From: Siderastrea radians
Lineage: Eukaryota; Cnidaria; Anthozoa; Scleractinia; Rhizangiidae
NCBI GenBank assembly: GCA_964017195.1
Contig: OZ024900.1
Location: 27,645,929 to 27,709,928 of the forward strand
Length of the DNA: 64,000 nt
Direction: 5' to 3'
In this document: positions 31,952-37,275 of the stretch, in pieces
How the letters are laid out: each line of letters starts with the position of its first letter
How positions within the stretch are numbered: position 1 is the first letter of the stretch
Position numbers and translations under genes: made by a program
The notes under the pieces: generated by a model
Told to the model about the DNA's origin: nothing
The model's database searches: none
The model's input: the letters and a program-made list of their open reading frames with translations, nothing else

Positions 31952-32271
31952 TATGGTGGCCTAGGTGTGCCATAGAAGAATTGTACACTATTTCAAGACT
32001 TATTTAATGATTTTATAGTTTGATTTAATGTGTTGTATATTTTATTGTCGATTTTTTATTATTTTTCTTTCACGTTTTTTGCTTCTTAGTTTTTGATATA
32101 GTATTTTTTATAGTTATTGTTATTCAATTTCAGTTTCAATTCAATTTCAGTGTTAAAACGAGTTTTATTTTGTTTTATTTCGTCTCAGTTTTGTTTTTCA
32201 AAAGAAAACTAAACTGCACCATGGCCTATGAGGGCCATAGACCACAATGCCATGCACGCATGTAAAGGCGC
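31952..32271 (+). repeat. Left terminal inverted repeat (320 bp)
   Basis: Exact-looking inverted copy of 36956-37275. It is AT-rich in the middle and has an imperfect palindrome GGCCTATGAGGGCC near its inner end (about 32223). The transposase ATG lies 30 bp inside, so the promoter is probably in the TIR. Confidence 0.95.
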
Positions 32272-32301
32272 TTTCCCAAAAGGCATCGCGCGTAATTCAA
32301 A

Positions 32302-34786
32302 ATGGCAGAGTCGCGAATAAGAAATGCCGAATGGCAGCATGACGATGCGCTAAAACAAGATCTTGAACAGTATGTTCACAGAAATCTGCGAAGACAGGAA
32401 GTTTTAGATTTTGTGAGCTTAGATTATCCAATGTACGCATGGAGTTTAAGAAGCCTTGGTAGAAGGCTCCAGTTTTTCGACCTCAAGTACACAGACTATG
32501 GAGTAGAAGTTAGTGATGTGCAAGAAGCTGTTAAAAAGGAGTTGCAAGGTCCTGGTAGGCTTTTGGGTTACCGAGCAATGCAACAGAAGGTGCGTGAGGT
32601 TCATGGCCTAAATGTTCCTCGCGATTTGGTGTACGCGGCGATGGGAGAAGCTGACCCGGATGGACTCGAATCAAGAGGAGGAGTGGGGCAATCGAATAGA
32701 CCACAACGATTGAATGCATTTGTCACTGGTGTAAGTTTAAGTTAATTTAACTTAAACATCGTGCAACCTATTATTATAAAGAAACCCCCAAAAAATAAAG
32801 CAGCAAATTTTCAAAACAGCTGCATTGCATTTCGTCTCCATTCGTGTATACATCTCTAACAGGACCAGGATTGCTCACTGTTTCTGTTTACTTTACCTTC
32901 TTGCATGTGCTTTTTTCATAATAGGGACCTGACTGTACTATGTCATGCGATGGACATGATAAACTTTGTGGGTACCAAAAGGCAATGTTTCCCTTGTGTA
33001 TTTACGGAGGATTAGATACCTACAGCGGGAGAGTAAATTTCCTGCGAGTGTGGACCTCAAACAACAACCCCAAGGTTATAGGAAGGTTCTATTTTGAATA
33101 TCTGTTTGAATCTAGAGGTAAGGGGCAAAATATAGAAGGCAAATCATATCTCAGTTTAGCTTGTCAGCCCTATTGCTTCTAAAGATATACATGTAATTTG
33201 GTGTAATGATGTTTATCAGAAACCTGGAATATTAGTATCAAATTATAACAGTGAACTAAATCAAAACACCCAAAATAGTATTCTATATATATTAATCCTT
33301 TATCCACTTGAAAGTTGAATGACATTTAAACCAGTTATAAGAATGTGTGTTTTTAGAAGATATGTTATTTACTGCCCAAGGGTTCCATATAGTGAAAACT
33401 GTGAACAAGTTCTTGAAAGTGCTGTCCCCCAAGTACACAAACAAATCTTTACCAATGTTTGTGGGGGGGTGGGGGGGTGGTGACAGGGTGTAAGAGAGGT
33501 TTCGCCCAGATTGCAGGATAAAATTGAGGTTAGAGTAATACTACATTGTACATGTTGCGATGTTGTAGGCCTTTGGCCACAGTTACAGTTTTTCACTATT
33601 CAGACCACCGCTAAGCTGGTAAATAACTTACTTATTCCCACCTCCGAGGTTATTTTTTGTGTGGTTAACTTTTTCAAAAATAAACACACAAAACCTTTAT
33701 CATGATCGTGGAAAGAAAATCTGGACTGCTCTTATAAGAACCAATCAGAATACAGAATTCATTACAGTGTTGGCTAGGAAAAAATGAAATGAATTACTGT
33801 TGATGTACATTTTTCTGCAGTTCTGCCCGAGACATTGCGGATAGACAGAGGTACCGAAACTGATGTTATGGCAACAATCCATTGCTTTCTTAGAGAGAAA
33901 CAAGGAGATTTAGAGAAATGTACAGATGCAGTACTCTATGGACCCTCAACCCAAAATAAAATAGAAAGGTGGCGGCGGGAGCTATTAGAAAGAATGGAGA
34001 GATATTTTAAAGATCAGCTCAAATCATTAGTTGAATGTGGTGAATATGACGCTAGTGATCAAACAGACAGGTACATGTATTTCATGGTGAATTTACTTAC
34101 AAATCTAACATGGTAGTAGAGTGAATTTCATAAAAGTGTGAAAACCTAGTAACCAATTAGTACCAGAGCATCCATAGTGGATGTGTTAGCAAGTGTACAT
34201 TTTATTTTAGTGTAGTTTGCCTTAATTTGTTGTATTTTTAAAATACAAAACAAAATTACTCAAGAGATAATAGTAATGTATGATAGGATTCCAGAGGTTC
34301 CATTAGCCTTTGAAACAAGCTCAGCTCTTGAAACTGGGGTTCTTTATTAATTTTTAGGAGTATTGGAGGCCAAACTTGTATTTTTTGTAACTGTTTGTAT
34401 ACTTTACATCTACCCTTAGGGACCTGCTAGCATATGTCTACATCCCTGTCATTCAAAAGGAGCTCGATGTTTTCAGAACGTGTGTGTGGAATAACCACAG
34501 GAGCCGGAAGCAGAGGGGAAAAGAACTTCCAGCAGGAGTGCCTGAACATATTTACCACTTTCCGGAACAATATGGTGGAGAAAAATGTGGCATCAAGGTT
34601 ACAGAAGAACAGTTACTTGAAGTTGCTGAGTTTTCTGAAGTTCTTGAGGAAAATGATGATTATCTAAAGCCATCTGTGCGACAAGAGTGTCAGCGACGTG
34701 TACCAGATGCCAATGACATAGATCCAGAAGATGCAAAGGTTGCTTACCTCTTTCTGCGATCTCATGTCAATAAAAATGCATTTTGA
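32302..34786 (+). CDS. DDE integrase-like transposase, four exons
   Basis: Exons 32302-32730, 32925-33117, 33821-34070 and 34420-34786 join at GT-AG introns in consistent phase to give 412 residues with no stop. The first exon (1-143) is helical and probably DNA-binding. The catalytic core follows. The first aspartate is D152 in CDGHDKLCGY, the second D216 in RIDRGTE, and the glutamate E256 in NKIERWRREL. The rve-like block YGGLDTYSGRV lies in between, and the WNNHRSRKQRG block with LPAGVPEHI follows. This D-D-E layout is that of retroviral-integrase-like transposases of the IS3EU/Ginger type. The protein would cut and join the TIRs. Polyadenylation was not mapped. The ATG is 30 bp from the TIR. 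Confidence 0.88.
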
Positions 34787-35602: not shown

Positions 35603-36820
35603 TCACATTTTTTTAAGTTCAAGCATGTTACAAAATTTGTTGCATACATGCACAGCCTTGAACTTTGTGATTGCCTGTGTGGAAAGATTTCCACAGCAGA
35701 AAAATATAGACATGTCATCATCCATTAAGGTGGAGGTTGCAATTTCTGGATCAAAAAGTTGATGGCCTACCCCTTGAATGTCCACAACCATGAGCTGCTG
35801 CCCTGACTTTTGGTAAGTAAAATATGAGAATGCTTCTGCCTTCATGGTTAACTCACTGTCACCAAAGACATCTCCTGTGTTATTGATATATTTCTGGAAT
35901 TCTCCCTCCAGATAGTTCTCAACAGTTATGCACTCGCCATACAACTTACCAAAGTAAACCTTTGTGTAGCAAAGGGGGGGCCCATATTCAACAGGTGCTT
36001 CATTGGCCTGCATAATAGCAAAGTTCCTAGAGAGAGCATTCATTTGGACCACTTTCCTCGTGTGTTCCTCGATTGACTTGAACAACTTCTTGATTTCTTC
36101 CAGTTGATCCGCTTTAAACCTTTTAAGTACATATTTTCCAGAACTGATACCCGACAGTGGTTCTGTAAGGTATGCATCACGAAAAGAACCACTTGCAAAT
36201 TTTTCTTTAGACAGGGAAAGTGTTACTTCAAAGGGCTGACCCCATGACTTTTCAGAAAGTTTGAATTCTTCCAGTTTTACAGTAACTATTTCCACAGTTG
36301 GCTGAATAAGTTTGCCAATTTGGAGCATGGCACTGAGTGGTACCGAGGCTACCACTTTAGTTGACATTGAAGTGGGTGGGGGTGCCTTCGTTGGAGTTAA
36401 TTGGGATTTCCACTGTTTCTTGGTGTTGAACTCGGACTTTTCACAGAATTGGCTCTCATCACTACGCTCGATAAAGCGAACATGTATAACCTTCCAATTG
36501 GATATCTGACTCGTTTCAGACCAAGATGGCCCCCTCTCACCTGCCAGGACATCGCAGTAAATACCATCTGCTACATCGAAGTGGCGCTTGCAAGCCTCTT
36601 TGATGTTCTGAATAGTGGGTTCACAGCCTAAAGGCACGCTTGTCAAGGCCCCAATTCTGGCATATTTCTGGTATCTTCCTTCCACACTAGATGATAGCCG
36701 CTGAACGGTGATGTAGTCCATGTCCGTGTTTGTTGTGGCTTCTTCCTTTCCCCTTCTCTTTTTCGCCACCTTTTCTTTAAATTTTGCGAAATCATCCTTC
36801 CGATTACTTCTCTTTGACAT
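35603..36820 (-). CDS. Alpha-type protein kinase carried by the transposon
   Basis: A single-exon 405-residue protein with a complete alpha-kinase domain in its second half. The glycine-rich turn is GSFRDAY at 211-217. The ATP-binding lysine is K233 in YVLKRFK. The acidic block is VENYLEGEFQKY (about 300-311). The catalytic aspartate is D347 in VVDIQGVG, with FDPEI just after it. The zinc site H-x-C-x3-C is H391, C393 and C397 (HVCNKFC). These are the marks of the eEF2K/MHCK/TRPM7 family of atypical Ser/Thr kinases. The N-terminus is basic (KRSNRKDD, KKRRGKEE), like a nuclear localisation signal. It is followed by a small conserved-looking domain (about 50-115) seen in front of some invertebrate alpha-kinases. 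No stop or frameshift is present. The ATG lies 135 bp inside the right TIR. Confidence 0.93.
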   Translation of the reverse strand: MSKRSNRKDDFAKFKEKVAKKRRGKEEATTNTDMDYITVQRLSSSVEGRYQKYARIGALTSVPLGCEPTIQNIKEACKRHFDVADGIYCDVLAGERGPSWSETSQISNWKVIHVRFIERSDESQFCEKSEFNTKKQWKSQLTPTKAPPPTSMSTKVVASVPLSAMLQIGKLIQPTVEIVTVKLEEFKLSEKSWGQPFEVTLSLSKEKFASGSFRDAYLTEPLSGISSGKYVLKRFKADQLEEIKKLFKSIEEHTRKVVQMNALSRNFAIMQANEAPVEYGPPLCYTKVYFGKLYGECITVENYLEGEFQKYINNTGDVFGDSELTMKAEAFSYFTYQKSGQQLMVVDIQGVGHQLFDPEIATSTLMDDDMSIFFCCGNLSTQAITKFKAVHVCNKFCNMLELKKM

Positions 36821-36955
36821 TTTAGAACGTGCCTCGTCCTTCGATAAACGGCTAAGAAAACTACAAGCTCTACGTACAATGAACTAGAAACCCGTACTCG
36901 ACTCCATGTGCAAGACTGCTGCCAGCGAAGGGAATTCTGGGTGTTTTTCAAAATG

Positions 36956-37275
36956 GCGCCTTTACATGCGTGCATGGCATTGTGGTCTATGGCCCTCATA
37001 GGCCATGGTGCAGTTTAGTTTTCTTTTGAAAAACAAAACTGAGACGAAATAAAACAAAATAAAACTCGTTTTAACACTGAAATTGAATTGAAACTGAAAT
37101 TGAATAACAATAACTATAAAAAATACTATATCAAAAACTAAGAAGCAAAAAACGTGAAAGAAAAATAATAAAAAATCGACAATAAAATATACAACACATT
37201 AAATCAAACTATAAAATCATTAAATAAGTCTTGAAATAGTGTACAATTCTTCTATGGCACACCTAGGCCACCATA
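36956..37275 (-). repeat. Right terminal inverted repeat (320 bp)
   Basis: Inverted copy of 31952-32271. It is directly followed by the second GACGAC target copy and probably drives the kinase gene. Confidence 0.95.

Follow-up and report, generated by a model that had tools for sequence, protein, structure and literature searches.

The stretch of DNA analysed here, 64,000 nucleotides of contig OZ024900.1 of Siderastrea radians (hereafter the window), contains a DNA transposon with exact bounds at positions 31952 and 37275. The element carries two convergent genes, a transposase gene on the forward strand and a gene for an alpha-type protein kinase on the reverse strand, enclosed by terminal inverted repeats (TIRs) and flanked by a target site duplication (TSD). 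Its features are listed by position in the window, with the basis of each assignment and with lengths of proteins and domains in amino acids (aa):

31946..31951, TSD, left copy GACGAC (sequence reading)
31952..32271, forward strand, left TIR, 320 bp, starting with TATGGTGGCC and ending 30 bp upstream of the transposase ATG
32302..32730, forward strand, transposase exon 1 (spliced frame)
32925..33117, forward strand, transposase exon 2 with the putative catalytic Asp152 (spliced frame; residue by motif position)
33821..34070, forward strand, transposase exon 3 with the putative catalytic Asp216 and Glu256 (spliced frame; residues by motif position)
34420..34786, forward strand, transposase exon 4, including the stop (spliced frame)
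35603..36820, reverse strand, alpha-kinase gene, a single exon of 405 aa, convergent with the transposase gene (open reading frame and PF02816)
35630..36196, reverse strand, alpha-kinase catalytic domain, aa 209–397 (profile and structure matches)
35822..35824, reverse strand, kinase codon 333, Tyr here and His in other copies (copy comparison)
36467..36721, reverse strand, N-terminal domain of the kinase, aa 34–118, tentatively beta-grasp/ubiquitin-like (alignment and models)
36956..37275, reverse strand, right TIR, 320 bp, same as the left TIR (sequence reading)
37276..37281, TSD, right copy GACGAC (sequence reading)

A preliminary description of this DNA had claimed identical 320-bp TIRs and a GACGAC duplication, and both are confirmed: the two TIRs match at 320 of 320 positions without a mismatch, in an alignment that can be extended to 327 bp at 99%, and the duplication is found on either side of the element. 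The termini are TATGGTGGCC..GGCCACCATA, i.e., TATGG..CCATA. When the Siderastrea radians assembly (804.8 Mb in 439 contigs) was searched with the TIR, 21 places were found that form 10 pairs and one weak, partial match at 77%, and the TIR structure is therefore not due to chance. Judged from its 6-bp TSD, its TA..TA and TAYGG..CCRTA termini, and TIRs longer than 30 bp, the element fits the IS3EU superfamily.

The transposase frame proved to be uninterrupted after splicing, as had been described: four exons, separated by three GT-AG introns, join into a single open frame of 412 aa that matches the Pfam profile PF24764 (“Integrase core domain”) with E = 2e-16. The acidic residues D152, D216, and E256 form the putative DDE triad, with 39 residues between the latter two. 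The protein encoded by the window copy departs from those of other copies in the genome at position 259, which is Arg here but Trp in all eight of the copies compared with it, and which lies three residues past the putative catalytic Glu. It further has H26 and V34, where all eight of these copies have R and I, respectively, and R384, a position at which H stands in all seven of the others that could be read.

The kinase gene begins 135 bp inward of the right TIR, and the uninterrupted 405-codon frame reported for it was recovered. Its product covers the entire PF02816 profile (1–185 of 185; E = 1.7e-34, 120 bits), and the nearest solved structures are the TRP-channel kinase 1ia9 (TRPM7/ChaK), eEF2K, and MHCK-A. 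The P-loop, Lys233, Glu301, Asp347, Gln349, Asp357, and His391/Cys393/Cys397 are present, of which we take K233, D347, and D357 to be the catalytic Lys and Asp residues and H391, C393, and C397 to be zinc ligands. The statement that all alpha-kinase landmarks are in place is wrong for one of them. Position 333 corresponds to the His within the AFSHWTY stretch of the TRPM7 kinase, presumably a zinc ligand. It is Tyr in the window copy and His in each of the seven others that could be read at this point (a comparison that leaves out L010, whose frame is shifted at this residue, and L017, where the position is deleted). Tyr333 and the substitutions in the transposase suggest that the window copy may be impaired, with a possibly weakened kinase and a transposase altered at Arg259, although both frames are open.

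A structure of the kinase predicted from 18 sequences and fragments (mean pLDDT 74.0, pTM 0.54) matched known alpha-kinase structures, with values of up to 2.7e-15 for TRPM7/ChaK and further matches to MHCK-A and eEF2K. Residues 34–118 form a strand-strand-helix-strand-strand domain that is conserved across all seven of the aligned family representatives. This domain is tentatively regarded as ubiquitin-like: an initial model of lower quality (pLDDT 55.8) weakly resembled SUMO1, ubiquitin, and ULD entries (E 0.02–0.06), and the better model matched a chain of the NORE1A/Ras complex (E 0.04), the aligned residues not being displayed in either case. No relative of the kinase was found in a phage collection, and among viral contigs 22 pattern matches were obtained, of which 0 were confirmed.

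The window element belongs to a family of 10 near-identical copies that have TIRs at both ends and different flanks. The other copies differ from it at 13–27 of ~5,320 positions (17 of 2,816 for one internally deleted copy), and the TSD is an exact 6-bp repeat in seven of the ten, has one mismatch in two, and is lacking in one. The element is recently inserted, and its family is young and multi-copy. Copies that share TIRs, transposase, and kinase, for which the preliminary description had suggested a search, thus exist: the kinase gene is present in all nine copies without an internal deletion. Its frame is open in 7 of the 10 copies, in one of which the stop is missing and the frame runs on to 476 aa. 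Eight of the 10 have an open transposase frame, one of these having a GC splice donor for GT. Two copies on the same contig, L013 (C2:2.34M) and L014 (C2:2.30M), lie 44 kb apart and have common changes unique to them and an identical kinase; one of this pair has a clean TSD (CTAGTG) and the other none, and, on visual inspection, the two flanks of the latter look in part like inverted versions of one another. Another copy, L011 (C3:6225593-6235276), has ~3 kb of extra DNA in transposase intron 3 and ~0.36 kb between the genes, with both frames open.

Beyond this family, a search of the genome with the kinase gave 103 matches, and the genes were read in five more families (C1:1.79M, C8:10.5M, C4:64.0M, C6:49.3M, and C11:24.0M), in all of which they are convergent. 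Relative to the window element, the matched pieces of their transposases are 44–62% identical and their kinases 32–54%. The four families read to both ends (C1, C8, C4, and C6) have TIR matches of 216–425 bp at 98.8–99.5% identity that start with TATGGTGGCC, and three of the four have a 6-bp TSD; for the C11:24.0M family, the right end alone was covered. According to distances derived by hand, both genes start at most ~140 bp from a TIR, or just inside it, in the four mapped families and the window element. A scan for transposases, in which 101 of 791 candidates were scored, provided locus counts that rest on those candidates: transposase loci with an identity of 42% or more number 62, and at 54 of them a convergent kinase lies no further than 12 kb away (44 of 52 once the ten copies of the window family are set aside); at 30–33% identity, the figure is 0 of 15 loci. 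One kinase-less relative, L065 (C3:6858200-6862700), has a single-frame PF24764 transposase of ~395 aa, with a weak zinc-ribbon match below the cut-off at its N-terminus.

Synonymous and nonsynonymous differences in the kinase, which had been proposed as a check, were informative between families: among seven representatives, pS is 0.79–0.90 (saturated) and pN 0.29–0.47, and these saturated synonymous sites and constrained amino acids argue that the kinase is under purifying selection over the lifetime of the lineage. Within families, pairs of kinases have 0–3 synonymous and 0–7 nonsynonymous differences, which are few, neutral-looking as expected after insertion, and little informative. The agreement between gene trees, also put forward as a check, holds in part: across 17 loci, the kinase and transposase trees have 8 of 14 splits in common, while 2,000 label shuffles gave at most 3. 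The two genes thus appear to have mostly travelled together. The presence of the kinase in all undeleted copies and in the further families, the selection on it, and the agreement of the trees therefore show the alpha-kinase to be an established second gene in a sub-lineage of IS3EU, convergent with the transposase. That it is a gene of this transposon lineage had been suggested from the single copy; the outcomes named beforehand as speaking against it were copies consistently without the kinase or a single trapping, and instead 9 of 9 undeleted copies and five families carry the gene.

Several observations weigh against this conclusion or against parts of it. Three of the 10 kinases in the window family are broken (one stop, one frameshift, and one internal deletion that leaves ~75 codons), and one open copy has lost the catalytic Lys through a change of Lys233 to Glu. 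A convergent kinase within 12 kb is lacking at 8 of the 62 lineage transposase loci (at least 42% identity), and 24 of 78 kinase loci are without a listed transposase among the 101 of 791 candidates scored (54 of 78 have one), at least two of those 24 having transposase exons all the same; all these counts include near-identical copies of families, and the loci are not independent. The 17-locus trees contain several partial and some near-identical rows, with one of 18 loci dropped for missing data, and the well-supported disagreements between them (support of at least 0.8) are three splits in the transposase tree only and three in the kinase tree only; occasional exchange between kinase and transposase lineages may have occurred. 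For the N-terminal domain, the structural matches are weak, and a Pfam search with six fragments gave no real match, its two hits lying far below the cut-offs.

When a HECT search of the genome (129 rows) was set against the 150 listed PF24764 hits, 24 of the 150 had a HECT E3-ligase hit within 6 kb, with 24 of 24 convergent and 0.3 expected if evenly spread; many of these pairs are likely copies of few families and not independent cases. Examples, based on profile hits, are:

C10:37163636-37165914, convergent HECT/PF24764 pair
C4:11504862-11508121, convergent HECT/PF24764 pair
C6:50414317-50417576, convergent HECT/PF24764 pair

Of the 15 low-identity (30–33%) transposases, one lies no more than 6 kb from a HECT hit and by the listed coordinates is not that of L065, and a suspected HECT-type open reading frame beside L065 had no Pfam match. 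Judged by coordinates, related lineages may carry a candidate HECT ligase in the same slot. No paper on IS3EU together with HECT was found in the open-access literature.

We consider it probable that, as a whole, the locus is explained by a recently inserted two-gene IS3EU transposon in which the kinase is a long-kept second gene and a helper in trans. Each TIR would combine a transposase binding site with a putative promoter, and the twin TIR promoters would lead to transposase and kinase being produced together. The kinase, as a putative helper in trans, would phosphorylate the transposase or a host factor of chromatin, silencing, or repair, and this phosphorylation would favour transposition; the possibly ubiquitin-like N-terminal domain would direct the kinase to its target. 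A helper role in general receives about half of the weight, and any single target less.

A host kinase gene trapped once between two TIRs, or an accident of assembly, would be suggested solely by the view of the window as a single copy; it is refuted by the ten copies with different flanks and the five divergent families of the same layout, and its probability is close to nil. The kinase could also be a cargo that benefits the host, the transposon spreading since its carriers fare better. Purifying selection between families is compatible with cargo as well as helper use, and we know of no role of alpha-kinases in transposition, which counts in favour of a cargo. However, the kinase largely tracks the transposase phylogeny and adjoins the TIR, as a gene of the element would, and the copies of the window family are numerous and of recent origin, so that we regard host benefit as improbable. 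Better placed, although still on the unlikely side, is an anti-silencing gene that would modify a host silencing or DNA-damage pathway. Fungal IS3EU families have TET/JBP, themselves open to suspicion as anti-silencing enzymes, next to the alpha-kinase (PMC12730594), and the co-location with HECT ligases suggests that such elements may prefer regulatory enzymes as their second gene. Such a gene would be a special form of helper with a hypothetical substrate, and is indistinguishable from the general helper model here.

Extending the helper model, PF24764/IS3EU-like transposons might keep a convergent “second-gene slot” for differing host-directed enzymes (an alpha-kinase with a ubiquitin-like domain, a HECT E3 ligase, and, added in fungi, TET/JBP), which would be required helpers that reprogram the host protein-modification or chromatin machinery for transposition; we offer this as a possible but doubtful generalization.

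Elsewhere in the window, reverse transcriptase and tyrosine-recombinase-like domains, some below the Pfam cut-off, occur at 44288-47572 and 15345-17175 (both reverse strand), in what we take to be DIRS-like retroelements. Weak, below-cut-off matches to tnp2 (Transposase_21) and DUF1258 at 39289-40809 (forward strand) are perhaps the remnant of a CACTA-like transposon, and a LINE-like element with endonuclease and reverse transcriptase domains lies at 62205-63906 (forward strand). GFP-like exons have 68 matches genome-wide, with large arrays at C1:59.6-60.1M and C4:13.8-14.0M, and one such exon is nearest to the coral proteins Azami-Green and Dronpa.

A signalling kinase thus has a durable place in a lineage of eukaryotic DNA transposons, here in an animal, as attested by copies, families, selection, and trees, and this opens the testable question whether a DNA transposon needs a protein kinase of its own. 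As a caution, what genome annotations present as alpha-kinase “gene family expansions” may consist of transposon genes; an alpha-kinase expansion has been reported in rusts (PMC4469406 and PMC5295586), and we infer a link with transposons there. The belief that no report of the combination existed does not stand, as PMC12730594 reports the pair for fungal IS3EU; in the accessible part of that paper, the alpha-kinase appears at one place only in the main text, and this sole print found mentions the pair in passing. Among the titles and abstracts listed in searches of the open-access literature, which did not extend to Repbase or subscription journals, no other paper linked a transposon with an alpha-kinase, and none dealt with an animal case. 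To our knowledge, the results presented here are the first evidence for co-diversification of, and selection on, a transposon/alpha-kinase pair.

Compared with the known alpha-kinases of PF02816 (TRPM7/ChaK, eEF2K, and MHCK-A), the catalytic domain of the window kinase is alike by profile and fold, whereas the protein is short and has an N-terminal domain of its own in place of their channel, calmodulin-binding, or coiled-coil/WD40 parts. With IS3EU/GingerRoot in general, described as having TA..TA ends, a TSD of usually 6 bp, and an integrase-like DDE transposase (PMC10045372, 2023), the window element shares all three features, whereas the window lineage is set apart by TIRs that extend over hundreds of bp and by its second gene; the word “kinase” is absent from the accessible text of that paper. 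The Pucciniales IS3EU set has TAYGG..CCRTA termini and TIRs longer than 30 bp, and every TET+ IS3EU family in the fungal set of the paper is described as having an oppositely oriented transposase and alpha-kinase with TET/JBP in between (PMC12730594, 2025). By that description alone, the fungal families resemble the window element in their 6-bp TSD, their termini, and the opposed orientation of transposase and alpha-kinase, and the TET+ families differ from it in having a third gene, the TET/JBP between the two.

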